From Zunongwangia mangrovi (GTDB lineage: Bacteria; Bacteroidota; Bacteroidia; Flavobacteriales; Flavobacteriaceae): DNA of 64,000 nt. Numbering within the stretch: the stretch's first letter is position 1; every line of letters begins with the position of its first letter. A model generated the notes under the pieces. The model was not told the DNA's origin. It did not search any database and saw only the letters and a list, made by a program, of their open reading frames with translations. This document shows, in pieces, positions 8,203-29,772 of the stretch. Position numbers and translations under genes: made by a program. Location: the NCBI RefSeq assembly GCF_900112105.1, contig NZ_FOKV01000002.1:186001-250000 (forward strand). Reading direction: 5' to 3'.

Positions 8203-8217
8203 GTTTCAGTATAAAAA

Positions 8218-10659: not shown

Positions 10660-11833
10660 TTTTGCTGAATATTAAAGAGGTACAATTTCCGCCGAAACCA
10701 AAAGAATTTGATAACACATGATCGATTTTAGCCGATTTCAACTCGGTTACAGGTTCTAATTTTGTCTCGTTTATTACCGAATTAAAATTAAGATTGGGAT
10801 AAATTTGCTGATGTTTTATCGCCAGTAAACTAAACACCGCTTCGATACCACCAGCCGCTGCAAGCGTATGCCCGGTAAAAGATTTTGTACTGCTCAAGGC
10901 CGGCATTTCTTTAAAAGTGCGAATTAAAGCTCTACTTTCAGAAAGGTCGTTATTCTGTGTTGCCGTGCCGTGTGCGTTGATATAATCGATTTGATGCGGA
11001 TTGAATCTTGCAGTTTTTAAAGCTTTTTGCATCGCCAGATAAGCACCTTCGCCATTTTCTGAAGAAGCGGTTTGATGGAATGCATCGTTCGCATTTCCGT
11101 AACCCGAAACATAACCTAAAACCTCTTTATTTTCAGCTAATTCAGCCGATTCTAAAACTAAATATGCCGCAGCTTCGCCAAGATTTAATCCTTTTCTTTC
11201 AGCATCAAAAGGTTTCGGAAAATCTTCAGAATAGATCATTAAAGAATTAAAACCATTCAGCGTAAAACGAGAAAGACAATCTGTACCGCCAACGATCACG
11301 CGATCCAATCGACCAGATTTGATTAACCTGGCGCCCATCATAATTGCGTTGGCAGCAGACGAACATGCCGTGCTAATCGTCGTTACATAATTATTGATCC
11401 CAAAATAACTTGCAATTTGCTCGGTCGTAAAACCCGGGTGCTGCGCCTGAATAAATCTTCGATTGGTTGCATCGTTTTCGTATTCACGATAAAAACGTTC
11501 GGTCATATCCATCCCGCCAACACTAGTCCCATTCACAAAGCCAATATTCGTAAAATCCTTGATTTTAGCGTTTTTAACAGCTTCTTTTAAAGCTATAGTT
11601 CCCAATAGCGCCGCACGCGTGAATGCGTGACTTTCATCTAAATTCAAGTTTTTAGCAAGATCTATATTTGTAGCTTTTATCTCGCCAATAGGTAATTTTT
11701 GATGAGTCGTTTCTAAAATTTCAGGAGTCGAAAGTCCGTGTTTTCCATGAATAAGCGAGCTGTGATTTTCTTCAAGATCTTTTCCTATGGCAGAAAAAAT
11801 ACCCATTCCGGTTACAGCTACGCTCCTACTCAT
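10652..11833 (-). CDS. Beta-ketoacyl-ACP synthase (active KS of the aryl-polyene system)
   Basis: 393 residues, FabF-like. The triad is complete: Cys157 in STACSSAANA, His in INAHGTATQNND and His in TKSFTGHTLAAAGG. It should condense malonyl-ACP units onto the growing aryl chain. It begins 14 bases after the ACP gene and overlaps the Cys-less partner gene by 8 bases, which suggests translational coupling of the pair. It corresponds in role to ApeO of the E. coli aryl-polyene system (family knowledge); the length of the polyene it builds cannot be read from sequence. Confidence 0.88.
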   Translation of the reverse strand: MSRSVAVTGMGIFSAIGKDLEENHSSLIHGKHGLSTPEILETTHQKLPIGEIKATNIDLAKNLNLDESHAFTRAALLGTIALKEAVKNAKIKDFTNIGFVNGTSVGGMDMTERFYREYENDATNRRFIQAQHPGFTTEQIASYFGINNYVTTISTACSSAANAIMMGARLIKSGRLDRVIVGGTDCLSRFTLNGFNSLMIYSEDFPKPFDAERKGLNLGEAAAYLVLESAELAENKEVLGYVSGYGNANDAFHQTASSENGEGAYLAMQKALKTARFNPHQIDYINAHGTATQNNDLSESRALIRTFKEMPALSSTKSFTGHTLAAAGGIEAVFSLLAIKHQQIYPNLNFNSVINETKLEPVTELKSAKIDHVLSNSFGFGGNCTSLIFSKNG

Positions 11834-11847
11834 AAATAAGTTTTAGA

Positions 11848-12114
11848 TTACTTAGTACGGTTCGCTTCAATAAAATCTGCCATTTTATTGATACTTTCAA
11901 AAATCTCACGGCCTTTTTTAGGATCGGTAAGTTTGATACCGTAATCTTTCTCCAGTAAAACGATAAGCTCTAAGGCATCGATTGAGTCAAGACCAAGACC
12001 GTCTCCAAAAAGCGGTTCATCATTTTCAATATCGCTCACCTCCATATCCTCAAGGTTTAGCTGCTCTATAATACTGGCTTTTAACTCGGTATGCAAATCA
12101 GTCATAATCGGCAT
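11848..12114 (-). CDS. Acyl carrier protein
   Basis: 88 residues. GDGLGLDSIDALELIVLLE holds the phosphopantetheine Ser (residue 44, motif DSID), and the protein is acidic and helical, as in type II ACPs. It would carry the coumaroyl starter and the polyene intermediates. Two start codons are possible, ATG at 12114 and ATG at 12105 (MTDLHTEL); neither has a visible ribosome site, and both overlap the end of the preceding gene. It sits between the half-ketosynthase gene and the active ketosynthase gene. Confidence 0.88.
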   Translation of the reverse strand: MPIMTDLHTELKASIIEQLNLEDMEVSDIENDEPLFGDGLGLDSIDALELIVLLEKDYGIKLTDPKKGREIFESINKMADFIEANRTK

Positions 12115-12694
12115 CGTATATTTTGCGTATTTGTTCTTCAGAAGCTTCTTTTTTATGAGATTCTGAACTTAGCCACAAAAATACATCATATTCATCATTG
12201 TGCAAGTTTAACCAGGCACAAAGCACTTTATTTGCTTTTTTAGATTCGATTAACTGCTTAGAATAATCGATCAATAAATTTGCATTAAACTCATCTTCAA
12301 TAAAAAAGACATTTTCACTTTTTAATTGATGCCGAATGCTAATCTCACCCAAAACAATATTTGGTAAGGTGTAAACAAAAAGCGACGGCGAAGGAAAATC
12401 CTTAACCGATTCCTGATAATTTTGATCGCTATCTAAACTTGAACTATTATTACTGAAAACCAAAGCCGTTTCCTCATCGATATTGTTGTTTTTCAGCACA
12501 ATTTCTGAAGCGATGAATCCCAATTTAGAAAGCCTGTCCATTTTATGGAATTTGGGATATTTAATATTCAAGAACTTAAAAGAAGCCTTTAGAAATCGAG
12601 CAATATCAACTTCCGAAGAAAATATCACTTCGCCATCTAAAATGATTCTTTCATTTTTGATACGCACCCAATGCTCTACACCAAGATTAGCCAT
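12098..12694 (-). CDS. Half-length ketosynthase-like (thiolase N-terminal fold) protein
   Basis: 198 residues, about half a ketosynthase. The segments ALVFSNNSSSLDSDQNYQ and PSPSLFVYTLPNIVLGEIS look like the N-terminal thiolase-fold half (the region before the active site), and the place where Cys would be reads KSENVFFIEDEF. No Cys and no His loops, so it cannot be a catalyst of condensation. Small ketosynthase-like genes of this sort are seen next to ACP genes in flexirubin clusters. Its job may be structural or regulatory in the synthase complex. It overlaps the genes on both sides (8 bases upstream; 8 or 17 bases downstream), so it is translated in step with them. Confidence 0.65.
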   Translation of the reverse strand: MANLGVEHWVRIKNERIILDGEVIFSSEVDIARFLKASFKFLNIKYPKFHKMDRLSKLGFIASEIVLKNNNIDEETALVFSNNSSSLDSDQNYQESVKDFPSPSLFVYTLPNIVLGEISIRHQLKSENVFFIEDEFNANLLIDYSKQLIESKKANKVLCAWLNLHNDEYDVFLWLSSESHKKEASEEQIRKIYDADYD

Positions 12695-13841
12695 TTTCTC
12701 CTTCCTTTTTAAAAATCATCGCCAAATTACAGCCACCAAAACCCGAAGCTGTTTTTAAAACATAGTCCAGATTTATCGATTTTTGATATGCTGTAACCAC
12801 ATTTATTTTCGCGGAAACTCCATTTTCAGTGAAATTTAGGCTCGGATATATTTCACGGTTCAGCATCATGTGTTTGCATAAAATTGCTTCGATCAATGCC
12901 GAAGCACCCAATGTATGACCGTAATATCCTTTTACGCTATGAAGCGGAATTTCACCCAATTCACTTCTGGAAATTGCAATCGCTTCCATCTCATCATTGT
13001 AAAGTGTAGCTGTGCCGTGCGTGGAAATTGCTTTAATTGCTTCGGAAGAAATCTGAGCTTCTTTTAGCGAATTCTGAATGCTTTTATACAAACCTTCACC
13101 CGTTCGTGATGGTCCCGAAATATGATTTGCGTCGTTTGCTGAAGCATCGCCTACCAAGCTTATGTTAACCGAATTTTTCTTCGGAAGATCGCTCACCAGG
13201 ATTGCTGCTGCAGCTTCGCCAAGATTAATCCCGGTTCGATCTTTTGAAAAAGGCTTGCAATCATTTTCACTAAGTGCCTGAAAAGAATTAAAGCCGGAAA
13301 CAACGAATTTCGATAACATATCGCCACCAACTACGATGGCTTCTGAAAATTTCCCGGCATTGATCATTTTCTTAGCAACGGCCAATGCCAATCCACCCGA
13401 AATACAAGCGTTAGAAACTACAATTGGCTTCAGTTTAAAGCCAAAAAAATCTTTAACGATATTGCCCAAATTCGATAAAAATAGGCGCTCTTTTTTAAAG
13501 TCGGCCAAATCATCTAAAAGATGAACATTGCCTTTAGTTGTTGAAATTATGAGTCCGGTTTTATCTAAATCTAACTCCGGATTTTTATCTAAAACTCCCT
13601 GAACCGCCAGCAACATCATTTGCTCGAGCTTTGTAAAATCTTGCGGATTCCCGATTTCAGCAAAAGTTTCAGTCAGTATTTCTGAATTAACTATTCCCGC
13701 ACAAATTGGAGTATCTAAAAAATCATTTTTATTAAGTTTCTGTAAACCGGTAGTTCCGCTTCGTAGATTTTCAAGATTTTTTGAAGTAGTAAATCCAAGC
13801 GGAGAAATTATGCAATCGTCATGTAAGTAAAGCTTCTTCAT
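12687..13841 (-). CDS. Second beta-ketoacyl-ACP synthase
   Basis: 384 residues with a complete triad: Cys146 in VSNACISGGLALA, His in STHGTATLYND and His in KGYYGHTLGASA. The active-site neighbourhood (SNAC) differs from the STAC of the other ketosynthase, so the two may use different chain lengths, for example priming versus extension (inference). The ATG at 13841 overlaps the TAA of the thioesterase gene by one base (TAATG); a TTG extension to 13868 lies inside the thioesterase gene and is rejected. It resembles ApeR in role among the E. coli aryl-polyene genes, with moderate certainty. Confidence 0.85.
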   Translation of the reverse strand: MKKLYLHDDCIISPLGFTTSKNLENLRSGTTGLQKLNKNDFLDTPICAGIVNSEILTETFAEIGNPQDFTKLEQMMLLAVQGVLDKNPELDLDKTGLIISTTKGNVHLLDDLADFKKERLFLSNLGNIVKDFFGFKLKPIVVSNACISGGLALAVAKKMINAGKFSEAIVVGGDMLSKFVVSGFNSFQALSENDCKPFSKDRTGINLGEAAAAILVSDLPKKNSVNISLVGDASANDANHISGPSRTGEGLYKSIQNSLKEAQISSEAIKAISTHGTATLYNDEMEAIAISRSELGEIPLHSVKGYYGHTLGASALIEAILCKHMMLNREIYPSLNFTENGVSAKINVVTAYQKSINLDYVLKTASGFGGCNLAMIFKKEGENG

Positions 13842-14257
13842 TAAATAAGCCCTATTTTCTTTTTCCAATCTAGAAAAAATGAAGGATTATTAAGCACTAA
13901 TTCTCCATTTTTATCTGTAAAAACCTGCACCGTTTCACCGGTACAGATCAATTTATTGTCTTTAAAAATTCTATAATTATAAATGATCTTTGCCGCGTCT
14001 GTTGGAACAAATTTCGTTTCGACCGTAAATTCGTCACCATATTTTAAAGGCAGTTTATGCTCGCAAGAAGATTTTACAATAGGCGTAGCAAAACCGTTTG
14101 ATTTGGCATCTAAATAAGAAATAGCGTTTTGCATACCAAAATCTTCACGACCTTCCTCAAAATACTGCAGATAATTACCATGCCATACAATTTGCAAGGA
14201 ATCACACTCGCTAAAACGCACTTTCAGTTTGGTATGTATGCTTAACTTATTATTCAT
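13841..14257 (-). CDS. 4HBT-type acyl-CoA/acyl-ACP thioesterase
   Basis: 138 residues, hot-dog fold of the YbgC/FadM/4-hydroxybenzoyl-CoA thioesterase group. VRFSECDSLQIVWHGNYLQYFEEGRE holds the signature with the Asp (ECD) and the HGNYL loop. It would release an acyl chain from the ACP or serve as an editing enzyme. It is separated from the dehydratase by about 80 bases, the largest gap in the long operon, and is coupled to the following ketosynthase gene by a TAATG overlap. Confidence 0.82.
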   Translation of the reverse strand: MNNKLSIHTKLKVRFSECDSLQIVWHGNYLQYFEEGREDFGMQNAISYLDAKSNGFATPIVKSSCEHKLPLKYGDEFTVETKFVPTDAAKIIYNYRIFKDNKLICTGETVQVFTDKNGELVLNNPSFFLDWKKKIGLI

Positions 14258-14338
14258 TTTTGAAAAATAATCGCATCAGAAAAGACGATGCTGAAAAGAA
14301 TTTTGCTTCAAAAGATTCAATTAAAGCTAAATTATGGC

Positions 14339-14788
14339 TTAATCTACTGTTACGGTTTTCATTTCTGAAGTTGCTATCACCTGCTCGTTTTCATCTAAAG
14401 TTCTTGCCGTAACCAAAGTCACTTTCATTACTTCATGTAAGATTTCAACATGCGTGGTAAGCTGCTCACCTACCTTTGGTAACCTAAAAATTTCAACCGA
14501 TTTAATAGCGCCAATAAAGCCTGTTTTCGGTTTGTCTAATCCGCCAATATAACCCTGATAACCACGATGAAGCGACATACTTTGCGCCATGTGTTCAATA
14601 AGACCAGGTTCAGAAAAGATACCGTTTTCTACCAAAATATTATCGGCCGGCACCAAAAATCCTGTAATTCCGGTAAGTTTAGTGTAATCGTGCAGTTTAT
14701 CGACCATTACAAATGGCGGTTTCTGCGGAATTAGTTTTATGATCTCCTGTGGATCTAAAATTGGAGCTTCAAGTAATTTTTCTGCCAT
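14339..14788 (-). CDS. 3-hydroxyacyl-ACP dehydratase (FabZ/ApeI-ApeP-like)
   Basis: 149 residues with the hot-dog dehydratase pattern LIPQKPPFVMVDKL at the N-terminus and EPGLIEHMAQSMSLHRGYQG in the central helix; the Glu-His pair here stands for the catalytic site. It should dehydrate 3-hydroxyacyl-ACP to the trans-enoyl form and so make the conjugated double bonds, since no enoyl reductase is visible in the cluster. It starts 9 bases after the acyltransferase gene. Which of the two cluster dehydratases does most of the work is not decidable from sequence. Confidence 0.83.
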   Translation of the reverse strand: MAEKLLEAPILDPQEIIKLIPQKPPFVMVDKLHDYTKLTGITGFLVPADNILVENGIFSEPGLIEHMAQSMSLHRGYQGYIGGLDKPKTGFIGAIKSVEIFRLPKVGEQLTTHVEILHEVMKVTLVTARTLDENEQVIATSEMKTVTVD

Positions 14789-14797
14789 AAAAATTGT

Positions 14798-15676
14798 TTA
14801 GCTGAAATCGTTCCAATAGTCGTAAAAATTATACCACTGATGCGGATATTTTTTGACCATCTTTTCAAGATTTTCAAGATACGCTTTTAAAACTTCTTTG
14901 GGAGTATTTTTTTCAGGAATATAAGGCCTTGCATAGAAATGATAATGGAAATTTTTCTCTCGCATTATATGAACAAACAAGACAGGAATATCATTTCTTA
15001 TCGCCAGTTTAAACGGCCCTTGCGGAAATTTTGCCTTAGCGCCCAGAAAATCAGCATTCCAAGTTTTAGCTTCTTCTAAATAACGATCTGCCGCAAAAAC
15101 CAGTAATTCATTATTCTTTAGTGCCTGATTCATTTTAAAAATATGAGAAAGGTCTTTTTGTAGCACTATTATTTTAACAGCCGATTGGCCCGTAACCGAT
15201 TCCATGTAATTTTTGATGTTCTCGTGTTCAAAATCACTAATCACCAAATTAATTACAGCGCTGGTATGCTTTTCGTCAAAAAAATGTTTTGCGAGATTAA
15301 AGTTACCAATATGCGCGGTAAGTAGAATTCCGCCTTTATTTAATTTTCGAAGATTTTCGATATGTTTTATACCATCAAATTCAAAAGTATATCGATCTTT
15401 CATTCCGGCTGTGATCACTACGCGATCTAACTGAACTTTGCCGTATTTAAAGTAAGTTTTGTAGACATTTATAAAAGCACTAAAACCAGAATAGTTTAAT
15501 CTTCTGCGGAAATAATAGTACATACTTCGCGAAGAAGTTGGCGCAAAAATGAAGAAATACAGCGCAATAAAGATCAGTAGAAAATAAGCCGGATATAAAC
15601 CGAAGCTTCGAATAATAAATACGTATATCCGAATCGTTAACAGCGTTCCGCGTGATTTTCCACTCCAGCCTGCCAT
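14798..15676 (-). CDS. LpxL/HtrB-type lysophospholipid acyltransferase family protein
   Basis: 292 residues. A hydrophobic N-terminal helix (FGLYPAYFLLIFIALYFFIF) anchors it in the inner membrane. The acyltransferase box GILLTAHIGNFNLAKH has His followed by Asn-Phe rather than the usual HxxxxD/E, which is common in the LpxL/HtrB family (HxGNWE-like). A later IRNDIPVLFVHIMRE segment fits the substrate pocket. In aryl-polyene clusters an acyltransferase of this type moves the polyene onto a lipid or alcohol acceptor; here the acceptor could be the dialkylresorcinol of flexirubin. It lies 3 bases after the ketoreductase gene. Confidence 0.8.
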   Translation of the reverse strand: MAGWSGKSRGTLLTIRIYVFIIRSFGLYPAYFLLIFIALYFFIFAPTSSRSMYYYFRRRLNYSGFSAFINVYKTYFKYGKVQLDRVVITAGMKDRYTFEFDGIKHIENLRKLNKGGILLTAHIGNFNLAKHFFDEKHTSAVINLVISDFEHENIKNYMESVTGQSAVKIIVLQKDLSHIFKMNQALKNNELLVFAADRYLEEAKTWNADFLGAKAKFPQGPFKLAIRNDIPVLFVHIMREKNFHYHFYARPYIPEKNTPKEVLKAYLENLEKMVKKYPHQWYNFYDYWNDFS

Positions 15677-15679
15677 GCT

Positions 15680-16411
15680 TTAAGAATATAAACCGCCGTT
15701 GATATTAATCACCTCTCCCGTGATGTAGGACGCTTTTTTTGAGGCCAGGAAACTAACCAGATCGGCAACTTCTTCAGCATCTCCAAATCGCTGTAACGGA
15801 ATCATTTTTTTTAGCTCTTTTTCATCAAAATCGGCCGTCATATCTGAAGTTATAAATCCGGGAGCCACAGCATTTACGGTAACTTTTCGTTTCCCGATTT
15901 CCTGCGCTAAAGCTTTTGTTGCTGAAATTACCGCTCCTTTAGCCGCCGAATAATTTACCTGTCCGGGATTTCCTTTTACACCAGATAAAGAGACTATATT
16001 AATGATTCTGCCATATCTTTTTTGCAACATACTTTTTACAAATTGCTGCGTCACATTATAAAATCCGTTTAAAGATGTATTGATCACCGAATGCCAATCC
16101 TCTTCTCCCATCCACATAAATAAACCGTCTTTAGTGATTCCTGCATTATTCACGATCACTTCAACAACAGCTTCAGGATTCGATTTTTGCCAGTTTTCGA
16201 GGGAATTTTTGGTTGCTTCAGCATCAGCAATATCAAATTTCAACAAATCGCAGGTAACATCGCTTTCTTTAATAATTTTAGCAGTTGCTTCCGCAGCTTC
16301 AGTATTAGAATGATAATTCAATAAAATATGATAACCCAAATCTGCCGCTAATTTTATAGCGATGGCTTTTCCTATTCCGCGTGAACCTCCTGTTACTAAA
16401 GCGTATTTCAT
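15680..16411 (-). CDS. 3-oxoacyl-ACP reductase (FabG-like)
   Basis: 243 residues, classical short-chain dehydrogenase: TGGSRGIGKAIA for the cofactor, NNAGITKDGLFMWM, Ser in SLSGVKGNPGQ and the YSAAKGAVI catalytic Tyr-Lys pair, ending in a typical TGEVININGG. The Arg/Ser after the first glycines suggests NADPH. It reduces 3-oxoacyl-ACP intermediates of the polyene chain (equivalent of ApeQ). The ATG overlaps the TGA of the ammonia-lyase gene (ATGA). Confidence 0.9.
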   Translation of the reverse strand: MKYALVTGGSRGIGKAIAIKLAADLGYHILLNYHSNTEAAEATAKIIKESDVTCDLLKFDIADAEATKNSLENWQKSNPEAVVEVIVNNAGITKDGLFMWMGEEDWHSVINTSLNGFYNVTQQFVKSMLQKRYGRIINIVSLSGVKGNPGQVNYSAAKGAVISATKALAQEIGKRKVTVNAVAPGFITSDMTADFDEKELKKMIPLQRFGDAEEVADLVSFLASKKASYITGEVININGGLYS

Positions 16412-17946
16412 TTATAGATTTCGTTTTCTTTTAAAGACTTTGTAAAATCTTCTATTGTTGCATATAATGGAAAATCGTGCTGATCTTCCAATTCAATTTT
16501 ATGCTGAAATTGTTTAAAAACAGCCTTCGTTTTTTCGCTAAAACTATCCAGATCGTCAATATATTTTATTCCCTGGATAATCGCCATCATTTCTACCGCA
16601 AGCACCTGGTACGCATTATCGATCACCGTTTTAGTAATGTTTGCTGAATTGGTTCCCATACTCACAATATCCTGATTATCATTATTATTCGGGATGCTAT
16701 GCACATACATGCTATTTGACAGCGTTTGATTTTCAGCAGTGGTTGAAACCGCCGTAAACTGCGCGCCCTGCAATCCAAAATTGAGCCCCAATTTACCTAA
16801 ATTCACAAAAGGCGGGAAAATTTCGTTCAGTTTGCTATTCAGAATATAATTTAATTGCCGCTCGGCCAACATCGATAATCGCGTGATCACGAGTTTTAAT
16901 TTATCCATTTCAAGCGAAATAAAATCGCCGTGAAAATTTCCGCCGTGATAAACCATTTGCTTTTCTACGGAAACAATTGGATTGTCGTTAGCCGAATTTA
17001 CTTCGTCCATCAAAATCTTTTCTGCGGAATTTATCGTATCCAACACCGGACCTAAAATCTGCGGAATGCAGCGCAAACTATAATATTCCTGAACTTTCTC
17101 TGAAAAAATTGATTCAGAATTTGACGAATCTCGATATAAATGATCCTGCCTGTTTTTAATACGTTGGCTATCCTTCAAATGATCTCGCATCATTTTAGCG
17201 ATGCTATGCTGACTTTCATGCAATTTCGATGCATTCAATTCCGAAGAAAAATGATCGGAATAAGCTGAAACCAGTTCGTTCAACATTGAAGAACAACAAA
17301 CCGACCATTCCAATAATCGCCGAGCATGAATCAAATTTACGATCCCAATCCCCGTCATTACTGAAGTTCCGTTGATCAACGCCAAACCTTCTCGCAATTT
17401 AATTTCGATAGGTTTGATATTCAATTCCTTTAAAACCGATTTTGTAGATTTTCGCTCGCCTTTATAAAAAACCTCTCCTTCACCAATCAAGACTAGGGCT
17501 AAATGCGCTAGCTGCACCAAATCGCCAGAAGCTCCTACTCCACCGTGTTCAAAAATAAGTGGTGTAATATCATGATTGATCAATTGCTGCATCGTTTCTA
17601 AAACCGAAATATTTACTCCGGAATATCCCAAAGAAAGCGTATTTAAACGTGCTAACATTGAAGCTTTTACGTATAAAAGATCGATAGGTTTCCCAGTTCC
17701 AGAAGCATGACTGCGAATAAGATTATATTGCAGTTGCAAACGATCTTCGTCTTTAATTCGGTATTGTGCCATAGGCCCAAAACCCGTATTTACACCATAA
17801 ATCACCTTATCTTTCACAAATTCCTGTAGAAATTGAAATGATCTATCTGCTTTTTGAAGAATTTCATCGGAAATTTCAAGATTTTGGTTTTCAAATAAAA
17901 CCTCTTTGAAATCACTTATTTTTAATGGAGCTTTGATGCTAAGCAT
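16408..17946 (-). CDS. Tyrosine ammonia-lyase (aromatic amino acid lyase)
   Basis: 512 residues of the HAL/PAL/TAL family. The self-processing MIO triad Ala-Ser-Gly is at residues 139-141 in GGVGASGDLVQL. The sequence is strikingly like the F. johnsoniae tyrosine ammonia-lyase I know (VIYGVNTGFGPMAQYRIK, HSIPNNNDNQDIVSMGTNSA). The selectivity position reads RSHASGTG with a His, which favours tyrosine; phenylalanine lyases usually have Phe-Leu there. Product: 4-coumarate plus ammonia, the starter of the aryl polyene. It is the first gene of the long leftward operon and so sets entry into the pathway. The C-terminal tail (about residues 470-512) is divergent. Confidence 0.92.
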   Translation of the reverse strand: MLSIKAPLKISDFKEVLFENQNLEISDEILQKADRSFQFLQEFVKDKVIYGVNTGFGPMAQYRIKDEDRLQLQYNLIRSHASGTGKPIDLLYVKASMLARLNTLSLGYSGVNISVLETMQQLINHDITPLIFEHGGVGASGDLVQLAHLALVLIGEGEVFYKGERKSTKSVLKELNIKPIEIKLREGLALINGTSVMTGIGIVNLIHARRLLEWSVCCSSMLNELVSAYSDHFSSELNASKLHESQHSIAKMMRDHLKDSQRIKNRQDHLYRDSSNSESIFSEKVQEYYSLRCIPQILGPVLDTINSAEKILMDEVNSANDNPIVSVEKQMVYHGGNFHGDFISLEMDKLKLVITRLSMLAERQLNYILNSKLNEIFPPFVNLGKLGLNFGLQGAQFTAVSTTAENQTLSNSMYVHSIPNNNDNQDIVSMGTNSANITKTVIDNAYQVLAVEMMAIIQGIKYIDDLDSFSEKTKAVFKQFQHKIELEDQHDFPLYATIEDFTKSLKENEIYK

Positions 17947-17984
17947 AATGATTTGGTTAGGCGAAACCGCAATCGGTTCAGCCG

Positions 17985-18014
17985 CAAATGTAGTATATTT
18001 ACTCGATAATCGAG
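17985..18014 (-). promoter_or_regulatory. Candidate promoter of the pigment operon with overlapping palindrome
   Basis: On the minus strand TACATTTG (17985-17992) matches TAnnTTTG, about 40 bases upstream of the lyase ATG. No TTTG stands at -33; instead a perfect 13-bp palindrome CTCGATAATCGAG (18002-18014) begins 9 bases upstream of the -7 element and overlaps the usual -33 place. This is what an operator or activator site would look like. The regulator is unknown and none is encoded next to it. Confidence 0.5.
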
Positions 18015-18122
18015 ATTTAATGAGCGCTTAGACGAATGTTCACAAATAGTGATTTACAGTTTTAAACTCAAAATCAGATTATTGAGAACGATTTTTAGAA
18101 ATTCGAAAATTTCATTGAACGC

Positions 18123-19346
18123 ATGAAAAGAGAATTTACCGATATTTTAATTATTGGCGCCGGGCCATCGGGAATGGTTTCTGCTGGTTATCTTCAGCAA
18201 CATAATGTGCAACTAAAAGTGGTCGAAAAACAGCGATTTCCACGTTTTAGTATTGGTGAAAGTTTGATTCCGCGTTGCATGGATAATTTTGCGGAAGCCG
18301 GTTTATTGGAAACTATAGATAAGCATGGATTTCAGCGAAAATTTGGTGCTCGTTTTATCAAAAATGAGCTGGTAGGAGAATTCGATTTTAGTCAGAAATT
18401 CGGTGAAGGTTGGGATTGGACCTGGCAGGTTCCCAGAGCTGATTTTGACAATATTTTAGCTGAAGAAATAGCTTCACGTGGTGTAGATATTGCTTTTGAA
18501 ACCGAAGTGATCGCGGCAGATTTCACTAAAGAAAATCCTGTTATTACTATTCAGCATAAAAACGGAGAACAAACTGAAATTGAAGCCAAATTTGTGATCG
18601 ACAGCAGTGGTTTTGGCCGTCTTTTACCTAGATTATTAGATTTAGAGAAACCATCTAAACTAGAGTCGCATTCATCTATTTTTACTCATATCAAAGAAAC
18701 AAATCGACCGGATGGCAAAGAAGGTGAATTGATCACTTTTGAGGTTTTAGAAACCGAAGTTTGGTTTTGGTATATTCCTTTTTCTAACGGAAAAACAAGT
18801 TTAGGTTTTGTGGCGCCAACAGCATGGTTTGATCAATTTGATGAGGATCCTAAGGTTGCTTTTAATCAAATGATCTCGAAACTGAATTATTATAATGGCA
18901 GATTTGATGATTATGAGCCAGAATTTATTCCGAAGAAAATAAAACATATCGCGAAAAGCGTAAAATCTCTCTACGGAAAGAATTTTGCTTTAACAGGAAA
19001 TAGCGCCGAGTTTTTAGATCCCGTGTTTTCATCTGGTGTTAGTTTTGCAACAGAGTCGGGTTTAAAAGCAGCGAAATTAGCCTTAAAAGAATTAAATGGC
19101 GCAAATGTAGATTGGCAAGCAGAATATGAGGATTATATGAATGAAGGTATTGCCGTGTTTTCGAGTTACGTAAAAGATTGGTATAATGGTGATTTGCAGG
19201 ATATTTTCTTTCATAGATCACCAAACCCAGAATTTAAGAAACAAATTTGTGCGGTTTTAGCGGGCTATGTATGGAATAAGGAGAATCCATTCGTAAAAAA
19301 ACACAAACGTATTGTTGGATCTGTCGCTAAATTTATAAATCTATAA
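18123..19346 (+). CDS. FAD-dependent halogenase / monooxygenase-like oxidoreductase
   Basis: 407 residues. The N-terminal Rossmann motif DILIIGAGPSGMVSAGYL binds FAD; RFSIGESLIPRC and RADFDNIL follow as in the tryptophan-halogenase-like group. WFWYIP at residues 214-219 is an exact WxWxIP motif, the mark of flavin-dependent halogenases. GNSAEFLDPVFSSGVSF near residue 302 is the second FAD/substrate motif. Flexirubins exist in chlorinated and hydroxylated forms, so it may chlorinate or hydroxylate the aryl ring, but many homologues in these clusters are uncharacterised and may be plain monooxygenases. It is divergent from the lyase operon and shares its 176-base control region. Confidence 0.75.
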   Translation: MKREFTDILIIGAGPSGMVSAGYLQQHNVQLKVVEKQRFPRFSIGESLIPRCMDNFAEAGLLETIDKHGFQRKFGARFIKNELVGEFDFSQKFGEGWDWTWQVPRADFDNILAEEIASRGVDIAFETEVIAADFTKENPVITIQHKNGEQTEIEAKFVIDSSGFGRLLPRLLDLEKPSKLESHSSIFTHIKETNRPDGKEGELITFEVLETEVWFWYIPFSNGKTSLGFVAPTAWFDQFDEDPKVAFNQMISKLNYYNGRFDDYEPEFIPKKIKHIAKSVKSLYGKNFALTGNSAEFLDPVFSSGVSFATESGLKAAKLALKELNGANVDWQAEYEDYMNEGIAVFSSYVKDWYNGDLQDIFFHRSPNPEFKKQICAVLAGYVWNKENPFVKKHKRIVGSVAKFINL

Positions 19347-19448
19347 AATTATTAAATTTTTTATTTATTTTAAATAGTTGACTAGAAACAGATTAAACTG
19401 GAAATGCATTCAAGCCTCGAAATTATTGAGGAAAAAAGCTAAAAAAGG

Positions 19449-19480
19449 TTTGCAGGCTTCGTAAGTTTAAAGTAAGTTTG
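19449..19480 (+). promoter_or_regulatory. Strong promoter of the tRNA-Ser / tRNA-Pro unit
   Basis: TTTG at 19449-19452, a 20-base spacer and TAAGTTTG at 19473-19480: an exact match to the Bacteroidetes vegetative promoter. Transcription should start near 19487, some 35 bases before the mature tRNA-Ser. Confidence 0.8.
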
Positions 19481-19521
19481 CAACCGCAAAAATGATTGCG
19501 ACGTTCTTTTTAAAATTACTA

Positions 19522-19603
19522 GGAGAGGTGGCAGAGTGGTAATGCAGCAGCCTGCTAAGCTGTCATCCTTCGGGATGCCCGGGTTCGAATCCCGGTCTCT
19601 CCG
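19522..19603 (+). tRNA. tRNA-Ser (anticodon GCT)
   Basis: Acceptor stem GGAGAGG pairs with TCTCTCC; the anticodon stem GCAGC / GCTGT encloses the loop CTGCTAA with anticodon GCT. A long variable arm (ATCCTTCGGGAT hairpin) marks a class II tRNA, and GGGTTCGAATCCC is the T arm. CCA is not encoded. It reads serine codons AGC/AGT. Confidence 0.95.
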
Positions 19604-19637
19604 CAAATCGCGTCCAAGTCGCGATCAATAAATAACT

Positions 19638-19712
19638 CGGGGTGTAGCGTAGCCCGGTCATCGCGCCTGCTTTGGGAGCAGGAGGTCGCAGGTTCGAATC
19701 CTGCCACCCCGA
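19638..19712 (+). tRNA. tRNA-Pro (anticodon TGG)
   Basis: Acceptor stem CGGGGTG pairs with CACCCCG; the anticodon stem CTGCT / AGCAG... encloses a loop with anticodon TGG; CAGGTTCGAATCCTG is the T arm. The CCA end is not encoded (ACA follows). It lies 34 bases after the tRNA-Ser and is read by the same promoter. Confidence 0.95.
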
Positions 19713-19715
19713 CAT

Positions 19716-19755
19716 AAGCCTTATAATTATCCAATTATAAGGCTTTTATTTTTTA
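19716..19755 (+). terminator. Terminator of the tRNA unit
   Basis: Perfect 13-bp arms AAGCCTTATAATT (19716-19728) and AATTATAAGGCTT (19733-19745) with a 4-base loop, followed by TTATTTTTT. It lies directly after tRNA-Pro. Confidence 0.85.
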
Positions 19756-19855
19756 AACAAAATGAGGCCTATGTATGGAACACAGTACCATAATATTCAA
19801 AAAAATCTCCTACCACTCCAATTAATTTTTGAATTAAAACGAGTTTTGAGTTAAA

Positions 19856-20557
19856 TTATTCTTTCAAAAGTTTATTAACCTGAGCTTTATAATAATTACC
19901 AATTGGGAGATAGTTTTCAAGTACTTTGATCCTGTTTCCTTCAATGATCTTGATGTGCTTTTTGGAGACGATAAAGGATTTATGAATGCGTATAAAATCA
20001 GTTTGAGGTAATTTTTCCATTAAGTAGGAAAATTTGGATCTAACCAATAGTTGATCATTTTCAAAGATGATTTTAGCGTAATTTCCGGCGGCTTCGATGT
20101 AAACAATTTCATCGAGTGTTATTTGAATATGCTTCTTATCAGCATACACAAAAATGGTTTCTTTTTGCGGTTTATTTTGAGTAGAACTCCTTGATGAATG
20201 CTTTGCGTCTATTTCCAATGCTTTATTGACCGCCTTCAGAAATCGCTCAAAACTGAAGGGTTTTAAAAGATAGTCTGAAATCTCCAGTTCGTATCCTTCT
20301 AAAGCATATTCTTTGTAAGCCGTAGTCACAATGATCTTAGGTTTTTTAGATAAACTTCTCAAGAAATCAAAGCCTTTAAGTTTCGGCATATTTAGATCTA
20401 AGAATATAAGATCAACCTGATTACTTCTCAGATATTCCAAAGCTTCCAGCGCGTCATAGCAATGTTTTGCAAGCTTTAAATCTGGAATGAGATCGCAATA
20501 CTCTTTTATGATTTCGTGAGCCATTTGCTCATCGTCAATGATTAAATAGTTGGTCAT
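19856..20557 (-). CDS. LytTR-family response regulator
   Basis: 233 residues. Receiver domain (1-120) with the acidic pair in IIDDEQMAHEI, phospho-acceptor Asp in LIFLDLNMPKLKG, Thr in VTTAYKEYALEGYE and Lys in DYLLKPFS. Residues about 140-233 are a LytTR DNA-binding domain (VYADKKHIQITLDEIVYIEA, IRIHKSFIVSKKHIK). It overlaps the sensor kinase gene by 4 bases (ATGA), so the two are co-translated and surely form one two-component system. The target genes are unknown; the divergent metallophosphoesterase gene is a candidate by neighbourhood only. Confidence 0.92.
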   Translation of the reverse strand: MTNYLIIDDEQMAHEIIKEYCDLIPDLKLAKHCYDALEALEYLRSNQVDLIFLDLNMPKLKGFDFLRSLSKKPKIIVTTAYKEYALEGYELEISDYLLKPFSFERFLKAVNKALEIDAKHSSRSSTQNKPQKETIFVYADKKHIQITLDEIVYIEAAGNYAKIIFENDQLLVRSKFSYLMEKLPQTDFIRIHKSFIVSKKHIKIIEGNRIKVLENYLPIGNYYKAQVNKLLKE

Positions 20558-21372
20558 TGCTTTAATTGAAGTTTGGCTTTAAAAATAGCGTCTTCTTTAG
20601 AGCTACTGAATTTATGTCTTTGCGGATAGGCTAATTCTAATCTACGTTTTAAATTCTGAAGTCCAATTCCGTGGTTTTCTTCAAGCTCAGTTGCGTCAAA
20701 ATTGTTGCTAATTTCAAAATCGATGATATTGTCTGAAGCTTTCAGATTAATATGCACAAAAGCATCTTCTCGCAATTTTTCCACGCCGTGTTTAAACGCA
20801 TTTTCAACAAGAATGATAAACAGCAACGGTATTACTTTCAGGTTTTCATTCTTAACCTCAACATCAAATTGGATATCTACTTTTTTATGATACCGCATTT
20901 GATTGAGTGCTATAAAATTTTCTAAGTAGGTTAGTTCTTCAGTCAATTTTACCCGATGCTTTTCACCTTCATAAATGCTATAGCGCATCAATTCTGATAA
21001 TTTCAGAATAAGTCCTTTTACCTTGTCTGTATCCTTACCAACCATTCCGTAGAGGTTATTCAGCATATTGAAAAAGAAGTGCGGATTCACCTGATTTTGT
21101 AAATGCAAAAGCTCGTTGACTTTCTTTTCATTTTTAAGAATTATGAGTTCTTTCAACTGAATAACAAGCCAAATTACAGCCCACAAAAGGATAAGGCCAT
21201 AATAGCACAAAACACCAATACTGAATGCTGTAGGATAGCCTTCAAGAAAAACTACCGAGTTTTTCCCGAGAAATAGAATTTGGTAAGTGACGATACTCAG
21301 GGGTATCAGGATCGATAACCCAATCAGGAATTTAAGAATCCCCCATCGATTGTATGAAAACGTAGAAATCAT
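20554..21372 (-). CDS. LytS/AgrC-type sensor histidine kinase
   Basis: 272 residues. Two hydrophobic helices (ILKFLIGLSILIPLSIVTY and a second near residues 45-68) anchor it in the inner membrane with a very short outer loop. The His_kinase motif LQNQVNPHFFFNMLNNLYG carries the phospho-acceptor His; IILVENAFKHG is the N box and NHGIGLQNLKRRL the G2 box. This short layout, with no separate sensor domain, is common in Bacteroidetes partners of LytTR regulators. The stop overlaps the regulator start by 4 bases. Confidence 0.92.
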   Translation of the reverse strand: MISTFSYNRWGILKFLIGLSILIPLSIVTYQILFLGKNSVVFLEGYPTAFSIGVLCYYGLILLWAVIWLVIQLKELIILKNEKKVNELLHLQNQVNPHFFFNMLNNLYGMVGKDTDKVKGLILKLSELMRYSIYEGEKHRVKLTEELTYLENFIALNQMRYHKKVDIQFDVEVKNENLKVIPLLFIILVENAFKHGVEKLREDAFVHINLKASDNIIDFEISNNFDATELEENHGIGLQNLKRRLELAYPQRHKFSSSKEDAIFKAKLQLKQ

Positions 21373-21587
21373 ACCGCAAAATACTCAGATTTTGTAAAGC
21401 CTGGGCAAACTTGTGATGAATAGGCTTCAAGGGATTATAAGATTGCTTTTAAACGTGACAAACTCAATTTGGATAACGCAATCCATTATTCAGACTGAAA
21501 ATGAGCATTCTGAACACAAATTTTTCAGCAAAAAGAATCGGAAGAACACATTTGCGGTAAGCTTTTGTTCAACGAATTAAAAACACA

Positions 21588-25119: not shown

Positions 25120-28100
25120 TTATTTCAGCTCTATCCCTACTCCTATTTTAGCCAACAGATAAGGATTGTGATCGATCACTAAAAGATCATTATTTTCGCT
25201 TAACTGCTGCAAGACTTCTAACAATAAATCAATATCGGCATAATGCAAACCGATACTAGGTTCGTCTAGGATCAACAGTTGGTTTTTAGTTTTTGCCTGC
25301 AACCAATTGTTTAGTAATAATCGTTGTTTTTCTCCCGAAGAAAGCGATTTTACATATTGATCTATTCGCAAATGCGATAAACCAATCTCCACAAGGTCTT
25401 CTAATTGCAGAACGGCTTTTGTTGTTCCTGAAAAATTACTTAACCATTCCTGCAATTCTGAAATATTCATCGCTAAAATATCAGCAATATTTTTATCATT
25501 TATAGTTTGTGCCAAAATTTCATCTCGGTAACGCTTTCCATTACAAACATCACAAGTTTCTATATGTTTTACAGCTATATCTAAACTTGTAGAAACAGTA
25601 CCTGTTCCCTGACAGTTTGGACACTGACTCGCTTTGGTTTTATAGGAGAAGTCTTTGGCTTTACCACCAGTTTCCTTGGCAAACACTTTGGTAATCACAT
25701 TCAAAACATTTAAGTAATCGACCAGCAAAGTACTGTTGTAGGCTCTTAATTGTTTTGGTTCAAAATAATGCACGCCTTCATATTGCTTCGGAAAATCAAT
25801 ACTTTCACAATTTATTGGTTGTTGCTGTTCTAAACTCGGCATCAGCACCTTTTTCACCAACGTAGTTTTTCCTATTCCCGATTTACCGGTGATTGCGGTA
25901 ATTCCGCCTACCGGAATTTCAATTTGTTCTTTTTGTAAACTATGTTTCGAAATTCCTTCAATATGAATTGCTTTCTTTCCTTGCTGAAATTCGATGTTTT
26001 TAGATGCTGTTTTTACAAACGGATGACATACTACTGAATTCAAATAGGTTTCTGGTTTTCCTTCAAACATAACTTCGCCACCTAAACTTCCTGCTTTCGG
26101 CCCAATTTGCACCAAATGATCTGCTGCCAACATAATATCTTTATGATGCTCTATCACAATCACCGTATTTCCTTTGGTAACCAAGGCTTTTAGTAAGGCA
26201 ATCACATCGGCAATGTTGTTTTGCGACAATCCCGCCGATGGTTCATCTAACAAATAGGTAACGCCTTGCAACGGACTGTTTAATTGTTTGATGAGCGACA
26301 CCCGTTGCTGCTCGCCTCCGCTCAAGGTTTTCGATTTTCGATTCAAATGCAAATGGTCAATATGCAATTGTTTGGAGCGTTGCAAAGTCGCTTGTAAATG
26401 TTCATTCAGTTTTGAAATCAATTCCGCGTCTATAGTTTCTTTCGGTTCTGAATTGAGCAACCAATCTTCAAAAGCTCCTAAACTTTTTGCTTTTACATTA
26501 TGCATCGACAAGCCGTCTAAAGTGACGCTTAGTCGTTCGGGTTGTAAACCACTTCCCTGGCAATGACTACAGGTTTCCGGACTCAACAAAGCAAGCATAT
26601 GATCTTTGTGTTTGTTTTTTCGAATCATGAAATATTCATCCATTAAATACGTAAACAAACCTTTCCAAACCATATTAACCTGCTGCGTTCCTTCTCTTGA
26701 TTTAGTTTTAAATGTCCAAGTTGCTTCCCAGCTTTTTTCTGGTATTCCGTGAAATAAAATATCTTTTTGCTGCTGCGTAAACTCTTTAAAAGGCGTCTGC
26801 AACGTAAATCCGTATTCCTTACCAATTTCGCTTAAGATTGCCATGTATTGTCCGCCAGCCTGACCGTAATAATACAAAGCTTTGTTATGTTCTAAAAGTC
26901 CGTTTGAAATGCTCAGATTAGGATCTAAAATGATTTTAGAAACATCCGGAAGCAATGCTTCTCCAATCCCATCACAAACGCCACATTTCCCTAATTCATG
27001 TACGTTCGAAAAATGACTAGCCGACCATTCTTTGCCTTCGAACTGCGCTTTTCGTGAAAAGGCAAAACGCAAACTTTTATCAATATCGGTTTGTTTGGCT
27101 ACATCAGAACGCTGCGAAAATTTATGATCTTTCCGCGTGATGCAAATACTAGGCGTTAATCCTGAAATATGATCAACTTCAAACTGATAATCAACACCTA
27201 CTCTATTTTGCTGATAGCTGGAAAATTGTTTGCTCATTTCCTGCAAACCATACCCATGAAGCGTATCGATAACCAAAGAAGATTTCCCCGATCCTGAAAT
27301 TCCCGTCACCACCGATAATTGTTGCTTCGGAAAGCTGATATTCAAATCTTTCAACGCATGTGTTCGTGCGCCTTTAATTTGAATCTCATCTGTAAAAACC
27401 GACTCAGGGATCGATTCGTTTTCAGTATTAATTACTTCAGAATTATCTACAAATACATCACAATTTGCTTGAAACAAGGCATGATTTTCAAAACATACAA
27501 TTCCAGATGTGGCTGTTTTTAATTGCTGCAAAGCGTTTACCAGTTGCGTCACATTTTGTTGATGCAATCCAATGCTTGGTTCCTCTAACAAAAGAATGGT
27601 TTGCTTCGTTGGTTTTGCGAAATGCTTGGTCAGTTTAATTCGTTGTGCTTCGCCTCCACTTAACGTATTCGAAGGTTGTCCCAACTTTAAATAACCAACG
27701 CCTAAACGCTGCAACAAAGCTAAAACTTCTGCTAATTTCTTTTCGTTTTGAAAGAACTCAGAAGCTTCATCAATACTCAGATTATAGATGTCTGAAATGT
27801 TCTTGTTATTCCAATGAACCTGCAAAACTTCCGGCTTAAAACGCTTGCCATTACATTCGGGACAGGTTTGATTAATGGTGCCCATCACGCTCATGGATAA
27901 TGTAATGACACCCGCACCTTCGCAACGAGGGCAACGTCCTGCTTTGTTGTTAAATGAAAATGCGCTTTTCTTCAATTCTGATGCTTTGGCCTCATCAGTT
28001 TTGGCCAATAAATCCCTGATCTTATCGGCAATTCCGGTATAGGTCGCAGGATTACTTCGGGGTGTTTTTCCAATGGGTTGATCGGTCACTGTAAGCAATT

Positions 28101-29610
28101 GCAATCCTTTTGCTTCACTATAATTTTCAATTGAAGTTAAGACGGTGGCAGTTTTTCTACTCACCACCGCTAACTGTTTTTCAAGTGGTTGAAATCCAGT
28201 TTCTGAAACTTCTTTTCTTTCAGAATTGATTTTAGTTTCGGGAGTATTTAAAGCCTCTAAAGTTGGACTTTCAATATCTTTTGCCTTGAGAAAATCTGTT
28301 CGATTTCCGTTGAAAATGATCTCTCCACCTTCAACACCTGCTTTGGGTCCTAATTCAACAATCCAATCTGCTTTTTTGATTAAATTCAGATCATGTTCCA
28401 CCACTAAAACGGTATTTCCACGACTGATCAATCGTCTTAGAATGTTATACAAATGCTGTTGATAGGCGGGCGACAAACCAATAGAAGGTTCGTCAAAAAC
28501 GTATAAAATGCCTTGCAAACTACTGTTTACCTGTTTGATGAGTTTGATTCGCTGGCCGTCACCGCTTGAAATTTCCATACTCGGCGTACTCAATCGGTAA
28601 TGATCCATGCCCAAGCGAATCAAATCTTGCAATTGCGTACAAAGCTTGTTTACCAACACCTGTTCGCCTGCTTCATAGGTTTCCGATTGTAATTTTTCAT
28701 ACAATTCATTCAAAGGCAATTCCATCCATTCTTGAAAATTCAGTCCTTTCCAACGATACTTCAAATGATCTGCCTTGATTCGTGCACCATGACAACTAGG
28801 ACAAGTCTTGGCACTGGCAAAACGAAGAATACTCGGATTTCTATCTAAGCGAAGAATATCGCTCATGATAGGCAAAATTCCTTTGTAATAGCCTATTTCA
28901 CGAGGTTTTGCTTTGAAACCTTCCCAACGTAAACGCGATTCCAAACTATGTTTTCCGTAGTATACTTGTATGCGATCGCTCCCGTTCCAAATTACATTTT
29001 GCTGTTCTTCAGATAAATCTTTCCACGGAATATCTACATTGAATCCGTGCGCCTCACAAACCTTGTTCAACTCCTCTACCGTTACCTGGGAATACACGAT
29101 ATAACCGTTAGGCAAAGTAGTAACAATGGCTCCTTCGCGCAAGGTCTTATTTTCATCACCTACCAATTTTTCAATATCGATATACTCAGCTTCACCAATT
29201 CCACGACAGGTTTCGCAAGCTCCTTTTGGATGATTGAACGAAAAAAGCGATTTGCTCATGCTTTCTTCCGCAGCATAACGCGCAAACAGAATTCGAAAAA
29301 TAGGCGTCAACTCCGATAAGGTACCAAACGTAGCGTTTATGGACTGAAAGCGTTTGGATTGTTCTACTTTGATGACCGGAGGTAATTCGGTAATATCATC
29401 AACCAAAGCCGTTGGAATTGCTGCGGCATTTTGCTGATTGTAAGCCGGTAAACTTTCTAAAAAATACCGATAGCCTTCGTTACCAATAACTCCCATAGCC
29501 AAGGACGATTTCCCGGAACCCGAGAGTCCTGTTACCACAATTAATTGGTTTTTAGGTAAGTTTAAGGATACATTTTTAAGGTTGTTTTGGTAAGCATTTT
29601 GAATGCGCAT
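25120..29610 (-). CDS. Tandem double UvrA-like ABC ATPase (four ABC modules)
   Basis: 1496 residues, against about 940 for UvrA and about 750 for small UvrA-like proteins. Two UvrA-like halves follow each other, the border being near residue 740. Half 1: Walker A GLSGSGKSS (about 30), zinc-type CETCRGIG, signature SSGDGQRIK, Walker B VFDEPSIGL, then zinc pair CPRCEGAG / CPECNGKRF, LSGGEAQRI, LLEEPSIGL. Half 2: GISGSGKSS (about 775), CGVCDGIG, LSGGEQQRV, LLDEPSAGL, then GKSGIGKTT (about 1243), CPNCQGTG / CDVCNGKRY, LSSGEKQRL, LILDEPSIGL. No UvrB-binding insert is apparent from the length. The frame opens at a GTG (29664), but ATG 29610 (MRIQNAYQNNLKN) matches the UvrA beginning. Possible roles: drug resistance like DrrC, or DNA lesion handling. 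Confidence 0.85.
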   Translation of the reverse strand: MRIQNAYQNNLKNVSLNLPKNQLIVVTGLSGSGKSSLAMGVIGNEGYRYFLESLPAYNQQNAAAIPTALVDDITELPPVIKVEQSKRFQSINATFGTLSELTPIFRILFARYAAEESMSKSLFSFNHPKGACETCRGIGEAEYIDIEKLVGDENKTLREGAIVTTLPNGYIVYSQVTVEELNKVCEAHGFNVDIPWKDLSEEQQNVIWNGSDRIQVYYGKHSLESRLRWEGFKAKPREIGYYKGILPIMSDILRLDRNPSILRFASAKTCPSCHGARIKADHLKYRWKGLNFQEWMELPLNELYEKLQSETYEAGEQVLVNKLCTQLQDLIRLGMDHYRLSTPSMEISSGDGQRIKLIKQVNSSLQGILYVFDEPSIGLSPAYQQHLYNILRRLISRGNTVLVVEHDLNLIKKADWIVELGPKAGVEGGEIIFNGNRTDFLKAKDIESPTLEALNTPETKINSERKEVSETGFQPLEKQLAVVSRKTATVLTSIENYSEAKGLQLLTVTDQPIGKTPRSNPATYTGIADKIRDLLAKTDEAKASELKKSAFSFNNKAGRCPRCEGAGVITLSMSVMGTINQTCPECNGKRFKPEVLQVHWNNKNISDIYNLSIDEASEFFQNEKKLAEVLALLQRLGVGYLKLGQPSNTLSGGEAQRIKLTKHFAKPTKQTILLLEEPSIGLHQQNVTQLVNALQQLKTATSGIVCFENHALFQANCDVFVDNSEVINTENESIPESVFTDEIQIKGARTHALKDLNISFPKQQLSVVTGISGSGKSSLVIDTLHGYGLQEMSKQFSSYQQNRVGVDYQFEVDHISGLTPSICITRKDHKFSQRSDVAKQTDIDKSLRFAFSRKAQFEGKEWSASHFSNVHELGKCGVCDGIGEALLPDVSKIILDPNLSISNGLLEHNKALYYYGQAGGQYMAILSEIGKEYGFTLQTPFKEFTQQQKDILFHGIPEKSWEATWTFKTKSREGTQQVNMVWKGLFTYLMDEYFMIRKNKHKDHMLALLSPETCSHCQGSGLQPERLSVTLDGLSMHNVKAKSLGAFEDWLLNSEPKETIDAELISKLNEHLQATLQRSKQLHIDHLHLNRKSKTLSGGEQQRVSLIKQLNSPLQGVTYLLDEPSAGLSQNNIADVIALLKALVTKGNTVIVIEHHKDIMLAADHLVQIGPKAGSLGGEVMFEGKPETYLNSVVCHPFVKTASKNIEFQQGKKAIHIEGISKHSLQKEQIEIPVGGITAITGKSGIGKTTLVKKVLMPSLEQQQPINCESIDFPKQYEGVHYFEPKQLRAYNSTLLVDYLNVLNVITKVFAKETGGKAKDFSYKTKASQCPNCQGTGTVSTSLDIAVKHIETCDVCNGKRYRDEILAQTINDKNIADILAMNISELQEWLSNFSGTTKAVLQLEDLVEIGLSHLRIDQYVKSLSSGEKQRLLLNNWLQAKTKNQLLILDEPSIGLHYADIDLLLEVLQQLSENNDLLVIDHNPYLLAKIGVGIELK

Positions 29611-29715
29611 GTAGAACTGGCTTTTGCGTTTGAAAAGCAAAGGTAGGAGAATATGAACGGGCACACAATGTTATAAGAAGATAGCCTTTGAACATTAAAA
29701 TTTGAGCAAAATTAA

Positions 29716-29765
29716 AAAATCGAAATTGGATAAAATAGGCCTTATTTTTATCCAATTTCGATTTT
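29716..29765 (-). terminator. Long perfect inverted repeat acting as terminator
   Basis: Arms of 20 bp (29716-29735 and 29746-29765) are perfect complements (AAAATCGAAATTGGATAAAA and its reverse) around a 10-base loop. Read on the minus strand it lies just after the sigma-factor operon and is followed by a T-rich stretch. It is A+T-rich and longer than most terminators here. Confidence 0.65.
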
Positions 29766-29772
29766 GGTACTT

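Follow-up and report, generated by a model that had tools for sequence, protein, structure and literature searches.

The window analysed here is a 64,000-nucleotide stretch of the Zunongwangia mangrovi genome (contig NZ_FOKV01000002.1, positions 186,001 to 250,000). Its reverse strand carries a gene for a double UvrA-like protein, in which two UvrA-like units of two ABC modules each are joined in one chain (Table 1). We took the ATG at 29610 as the start. The longer frame proposed by the open reading frame finder, opened by a GTG at 29664, is unlikely because the upstream promoter-like box would lie inside it; this box follows TAnnTTTG, the promoter consensus of Bacteroidota. In the gap that separates the double from the upstream gene, visual reading of the sequence revealed a near-perfect A/T-rich hairpin with a T run (29710–29766), for which the consensus scan gave no entry. 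The TAnnTTTG box and this terminator-like hairpin after the upstream gene suggest that the double is probably transcribed on its own. A sigma-70 scan returned 14 sites, with 14.0 expected.

Pfam recognized ABC modules in the protein, which has four of them in total, and the UvrA_DNA-bind domain twice. The UvrA model TIGR00630 gave 1060.1 bits, which passes the superfamily cut-off of 729.8; the whole protein was scored, so this value is a sum across two UvrA units. The boundary between the halves was placed from the position of Walker A in module 3, and the Pfam scan of the separate halves used a cut one codon later. AlphaFold2 predicted residues 1–1200 with a mean predicted local distance difference test (pLDDT) value of 83.1 and a predicted TM-score (pTM) of 0.71, and half 2 with values of 87.0 and 0.78, respectively. 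In both cases the top structure matches were UvrA proteins. The highest TM-score by target in each list belonged to Ecm16 (7sh1; 0.80–0.81 for residues 1–1200 and 0.82–0.83 for half 2), despite its rank by E-value of only 27–32. The UvrA fold is thus predicted in both modelled parts. The first-pass annotation had described one chain with four ABC modules and unequal halves, and this architecture is well supported. The motifs it quoted were all found, at the positions given in Table 1.

Table 1. Positions, in window numbering, of the double UvrA-like gene, its motifs and its upstream box
Feature	Coordinates	Strand	Basis or remark
Double UvrA-like gene	25120..29610	-	1496 aa, ATG at 29610; single frame, no internal stops
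TACCTTTG, likely -7 promoter box of the double UvrA gene	29638..29645	-	TAnnTTTG in 5/7 aligned upstream regions
Half 1 (aa 1-737; modules 1 + 2)	27400..29610	-	UvrA_DNA-bind present, UvrA_inter absent (Pfam)
Walker A module 1, GLSGSGKSS, intact	29503..29529	-	17/17 orthologues
Half-1 insertion (DNA-binding) domain	28951..29178	-	PF17755, aa 145-220, profile positions 1-74 of 110
Degenerate signature module 1, ISSGDGQ, half-1 distal site	28552..28572	-	ISSGD in 17/17
Walker B module 1, YVFDEPSIGL, intact	28474..28503	-	Motif table
Walker A remnant module 2, VVSRKTA, P-loop deleted, half-1 distal site	28147..28167	-	17/17
Q-loop/DNA-contact block module 2, DQPIGKTPRSNPATYTG, kept	28033..28083	-	Motif table and block count
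Signature module 2, LSGGEAQ, intact, half-1 proximal site	27643..27663	-	17/17
Altered Walker B module 2, LLLEEPSIGL, half-1 distal site	27565..27594	-	Altered in 16/17
Altered H-loop module 2, CFENH, half-1 distal site	27481..27495	-	17/17
Half 2 (aa 738-1496; modules 3 + 4)	25123..27399	-	Pfam scan; AlphaFold2 model, UvrA fold
Walker A module 3, GISGSGKSS, intact	27277..27303	-	Motif table
Q-loop module 3, CITRK (Gln to Arg)	27130..27144	-	17/17
Half-2 insertion (DNA-binding) domain	26623..26946	-	PF17755 match
Signature module 3, LSGGEQQ, intact	26305..26325	-	Motif table
Walker B module 3, YLLDEPSAGL, intact	26227..26256	-	Motif table
Walker A module 4, GKSGIGKTT, intact	25861..25887	-	Motif table
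Replaced Q-loop/DNA-contact block module 4, FEPKQLRAYNSTLLVDYL	25711..25764	-	1/18 identical to canonical
Signature module 4, LSSGEKQ, mild change	25324..25344	-	LSSGE in 17/17
Walker B module 4, LILDEPSIGL, intact	25246..25275	-	Motif table

The ATP sites of a UvrA unit are composite. According to excerpts of PMC10192343 and PMC6486640, the proximal site combines ATP-binding domain I with signature domain II, and the distal site ATP-binding domain II with signature domain I. The excerpt of PMC6486640 assigns fast hydrolysis to the distal sites, dependent on ATP at the proximal sites; that of PMC7835731 attributes most DNA contacts to signature domain II and the insertion domain. We compared these elements across the close orthologous group (group A, n = 17), which consists of the protein in the window and 16 orthologues of about equal length (L052–L066 and L073). 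All 17 sequences have an intact Walker A1, Walker B1 and signature 2 in half 1, and hence a complete proximal site; H-loop 1 of this half reads EH in 16 of them and GH in one. In the same half, Walker A2 is lost, signature 1 has become ISSGD and H-loop 2 CFENH, again in 17/17. The alteration of Walker B2 to LLEEPS, as first annotated, holds more loosely: 15 sequences are LLEEPS-like and L066 has LVLEQP, making 16 of 17 altered, and L073 keeps an intact LLDEPS. The L066 motif (LVLEQPG) is also changed at the position of the catalytic glutamate, a further decay of its half-1 distal site. Signature 1, Walker A2, Walker B2 and H-loop 2, the four elements altered in half 1, all belong to the distal site, a point that the first-pass annotation did not make. 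With four random hits among the eight catalytic elements of a unit, the chance that all of them fell in one site would be 2/70, a figure to be read with the caveat that the elements cannot be treated as independent.

Half 2 retains Walker A and Walker B of modules 3 and 4 together with signature 3 in 17/17, has LSSGE at signature 4 and carries Arg in place of the Q-loop Gln of module 3. The canonical Q-loop/DNA-contact block, PIGRTPRSNPATYTG, is nearly gone from module 4 (1/18 identities) and retained in half 1, where the group A value of 14/18 is a low estimate because a one-residue deletion put part of the block out of register in the count. A complete distal catalytic motif set is found in half 2 alone, its Q-loop having gone along with the block; half 1 is the one half with the canonical signature-II block and with a proximal site that is canonical throughout. 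The insertion domain and the zinc-type cysteines are present in both halves, the latter numbering eight per half and being invariant across 18 aligned doubles. The UvrB-interaction domain (PF17760, UvrA_inter) is absent from both halves; the UvrA1 L069 has one and the Chlamydiae double L114 has two. The impression that the losses are complementary between the halves was supported: they are non-random and fixed across the orthologues, most motifs being identical in state in 17/17. The suggested split, in which one half hydrolyses ATP and the other binds the substrate, proved too simple. Half 1 keeps a complete proximal site, half 2 keeps Walker residues at both sites, and neither half has given up its insertion domain or cysteines.

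Of 60 near genomes, 7 carried full-length orthologues, the own genome being one of them; these include all six genomes of the genus that were searched (the own and 5/5 others). Full-length orthologues also occurred in further genera; one named carrier is Salegentibacter salinarum (Flavobacteriaceae; L073). Within the family, 13/397 genomes hold the close form, 2 more hold group B doubles (see below) and 11 hold single UvrA-likes at the same threshold. In the phylum sample, full-length orthologues occurred in 2/395 genomes, one of them the own genome, and singles in 12 others. Few candidates were scored per genome (2 in the family and phylum scans, at most 9 in the near genomes), so these occurrences are lower bounds. 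The ratio of nonsynonymous to synonymous substitution rates (dN/dS), calculated per module for eight pairs, ranged from 0.018 to 0.194 in 30 of 32 values, the other two being undefined. All four modules are under purifying selection. Even module 2, which has lost its P-loop, gave 0.070–0.138 in 7/8 pairs, with a dN above that of module 1. The about-equal lengths of the orthologues and the low dN/dS rule out a frameshift, an assembly join or a pseudogene. In L061 (7295–11881), about 33 extra residues follow the ATP-binding part of module 1, and the DNA search match was split there.

A survey of relatives kept 80 of at least 583. Among the more distant doubles, signature 1, Walker B2 and H-loop 2 are degenerate in group B (L067, L068, L071), with Walker A2 intact. 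Group C (L072 and L075) has a nearly intact half-1 distal site; the N-terminus of L075 was set at the first base of its match, with no start codon there. The module-4 block is damaged in all five of these doubles (6–10 of 18 identities). In a 39-row tree, groups A, B and C form one clade in half 1 (100/100) and likewise in half 2 (100/99), and a 66-row tree agrees; L068 is included in the larger tree only. A and B are sisters in the trees of both halves, and group C itself is unresolved. Neither tree places the two halves as sisters, which rules out a recent tandem duplication. Both lie outside the class II clade, the clade of ~750-residue single UvrAs and the UvrA1 group, so the trees lend no support to descent from either of the first two. 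The trees were built from chosen subsets and are unrooted, and some branches are long (half 2 of group A reaches 2.4 changes per column); the deep placement of the halves is therefore unsure. Since decay is stepwise in the distant doubles and each half falls in its own matching clade, the simplest account is a single fusion older than the losses, followed by joint evolution. The simplest order of losses begins with the DNA block of half 2, continues with hydrolysis at the half-1 distal site and ends with ATP binding there.

That UvrA units can occur doubled in one chain is not new. A class I UvrA, as used in nucleotide excision repair (NER), has PF17760 and one two-module unit per chain, whereas this protein has four modules and no PF17760. 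Class II UvrAs (D. radiodurans UvrA2, Ecm16 and DrrC) resemble it in fold, in lacking the UvrB-binding domain, in keeping the insertion domain and in having two ABC modules per unit. They differ in that here two units are fused, the half-1 distal ATP site and the module-4 DNA block are lost, and, as far as unrooted trees with long branches can tell, the halves fall in separate clades outside class II. Ecm16 confers echinomycin resistance without UvrA, UvrB, UvrC or UvrD (excerpt of PMC10192343), and drUvrA2 did not substitute for UvrA1 in NER in vitro (excerpt of PMC8837605). The ~750-residue single UvrA-likes (Listeria, Enterococcus, Bacteroidota) share the unit length and a relaxed DNA-contact block, but they have a single unit, keep their catalytic motifs largely and form a separate clade. 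Groups B and C have the same architecture and fall in the same clades in both halves, and the two members scanned (L067, L072) lack UvrA_inter; unlike group A, they retain Walker A2, and their half-1 distal site is nearly intact or partly decayed. Among the matches listed in a search of open-licence PMC papers, none dealt with this protein, which does not imply its absence from print.

UvrA1 and UvrB are present in 11/11 genomes checked, and UvrC in the own genome. All 11 also hold a second UvrA with an open frame of 930–948 residues. In the own genome it is L070 (G000:C14:124742-127498; 928 residues), which the 66-row tree places with the first halves of L085, L131 and L132, all long doubles, and not with the main UvrA1. 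Genome G144 belongs to another genus. Its double shares 94% identity with that in the window, compared with 78% for UvrA1 and 83% for UvrB, and the 20-kb region around the gene has almost no neighbour family in common with the surroundings of the double in the window. The high identity of the double relative to UvrA1, together with the different neighbours, makes a transfer likely. G144 is the one clear case, and the double is likely an optional gene able to pass between species. In the same-genus genomes G003 and G005, the double is only 73–74% identical at the same place (families c1–c6), against 96–97% for UvrA1 and 97–98% for UvrB, which points to fast divergence or replacement.

No conserved partner gene or operon partner emerged from 23 loci (L074, cut by its own contig, was used for this table only), as no neighbour family occurred in more than six. 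The two top families reached six loci each, c0 in varying places and on either strand, and c1 mainly within the shared same-genus stretch. Families c2–c6 occurred at five loci, all of the same genus, and the remaining families at 2–4. Starting about 6 kb downstream of the double, the window holds a cluster at 8200–21400 with Pfam matches for ketosynthases, an aromatic amino acid lyase, a short-chain reductase, a lipid A-type acyltransferase and a flavin adenine dinucleotide (FAD) halogenase-like protein; an MMPL protein lies farther out, at 1.9–4.9 kb. This cluster resembles one for a flexirubin or aryl-polyene pigment. Matches in plasmid and phage collections numbered 295 and 43 records, respectively, all below 60% identity; the best 10 of each span 2.1–2.5 kb, corresponding to one UvrA unit.

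With the above results in hand, we propose, with a probability of about 0.55, that the protein is a covalently fused, functionally asymmetric UvrA that acts without UvrB. Regarding the mechanism, we infer that halves 1 and 2 may pack in cis as a pseudodimer over one DNA groove, in the way that the two protomers of UvrA do. Reading of the DNA would fall to signature domain II of half 1. The sole complete distal, fast-hydrolysing motor, located in half 2, would power a conformational change or release. The result would be one DNA-reading side and one driving side. A stricter version, which we hold tentatively and at somewhat less than even odds, is an obligately asymmetric one-chain heterodimer: one half would have just one ATP site, the regulatory (proximal) one, and read DNA; the other, having given up its signature-II contact with DNA, would be the only distal motor. 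As for the role, our hypothesis by analogy with Ecm16, DrrC and UvrA2 is that the double may bind adduct- or drug-bearing DNA and dislodge, mark or protect it without UvrB and UvrC, as an accessory tolerance gene. This class II-like role is our best guess because the UvrB-binding domain is missing, the genome has a complete set of NER genes and the occurrence is patchy and transferable.

A UvrA dimer has four ATP sites, and the division of labour among sites and protomers is difficult to work out, since any change made in a homodimer affects both protomers. The protein described here is in effect a natural one-sided mutant, with the distal site gone in one half and the DNA-contact block gone in the other. 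Groups A, B and C form a ready set for asking whether a UvrA can manage with one distal motor and one face that reads DNA, and they also offer a way to learn what accessory UvrAs that act without UvrB do in bacteria other than antibiotic producers. If the stricter version is true, UvrA action does not need two symmetric protomers that both read DNA and hydrolyse ATP, and evolution has built on this asymmetry a transferable machine that clears DNA independently of UvrB.

Several observations weigh against this proposal. L073 retains Walker B2, and in group B the half-1 Q-loop Gln has become His in 3/3 doubles. As insertion domains are kept in both halves, half 2 may still hold DNA. The net charge of signature domain II is not consistently lower in half 2 than in half 1 (L073, +6 vs. 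+5; L063, +3 vs. +4). In 16 of the ~750-residue single UvrAs, the DNA-contact block is also relaxed (8–14 of 18 identities), so loss of this block alone is not special to doubles. Finally, no biosynthetic, transporter or resistance gene was a conserved neighbour in the 23 loci.

This last point bears equally on the reading that the double is a self-protection or resistance factor against one environmental DNA-binding natural product, in a use close to that of Ecm16 or DrrC. The resistance conferred by Ecm16, the patchy presence, the likely transfer and the absence of fixed partners would suit an accessory gene of this kind. We nevertheless regard it as rather unlikely, given the lack of a recurrent biosynthetic or transporter neighbour and the tree position outside the class II clade. 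The pigment-like cluster was considered as a reason for a resistance gene and rejected, since its two edge genes lie near the double in only 2/23 loci (the window and L052, of the same genus); the other 21 flanks without them were limited to about 8 kb or less, making this a weak test. A role within ordinary NER, in which the double pairs with UvrA1 or passes lesions to UvrA1 and UvrB, is compatible with the UvrA fold of both modelled parts and with the presence of UvrA1, the second UvrA, UvrB and UvrC in the own genome. The missing UvrB-interaction domain makes it improbable, as do the NER inactivity of the analogous drUvrA2 in the excerpt cited above and the patchiness of the double (13/397 family genomes) compared with UvrA1 and UvrB in 11/11.

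Neutral decay of the half-1 distal site after the fusion, with no functional meaning, could account for the higher dN of module 2 and for losses that grow from relatives C to B to A. The strong constraint on module 2 speaks against it, and all 17 sequences share the P-loop deletion and CFENH while keeping the adjacent block and signature 2; we consider this explanation unlikely as well. An anti-phage or anti-plasmid DNA sensor is the idea to which we give very little weight. A patchy, partner-less, DNA-sensing ABC protein would fit, and PADLOC, applied to the double only, matched mad3 (283.7 bits) and mad8 (117.1 bits). In our judgement these matches probably reflect the ABC fold that the proteins have in common and could mislead automatic defence annotation. 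Pfam recognized no defence family in 19 neighbours in the window, and no neighbour was recurrent.

The asymmetric, UvrB-independent UvrA proposed above can also be set beside the longer tandem doubles, which made up 12 of the 80 kept loci (1777–2441 residues, one from Chlamydiae included). They likewise have two UvrA units per chain, and all 12 carry four intact Walker A motifs. The one scanned, L114, has the UvrB-interaction domain twice, unlike the protein in the window. The PRK00635 model (NCBIfam NF001885, 1809 positions) gave the latter 684 bits, below the cut-off of 3054. We assume that this model is chlamydial, and presumably the name and scheme "class III" applies to fused UvrAs. In 11 longer doubles, several of them near copies, the DNA block was better kept in half 1 in six, equal in four and better kept in half 2 in one, so that a milder asymmetry in favour of half 1 may be general among doubles. 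L127, whose halves were split wrongly, appears in the motif table and was left out of this count and of both trees. The long Planctomycetes doubles L106 and L111 have 2167 and 2441 residues, of which half 2 takes up 1178 and 1425, respectively.

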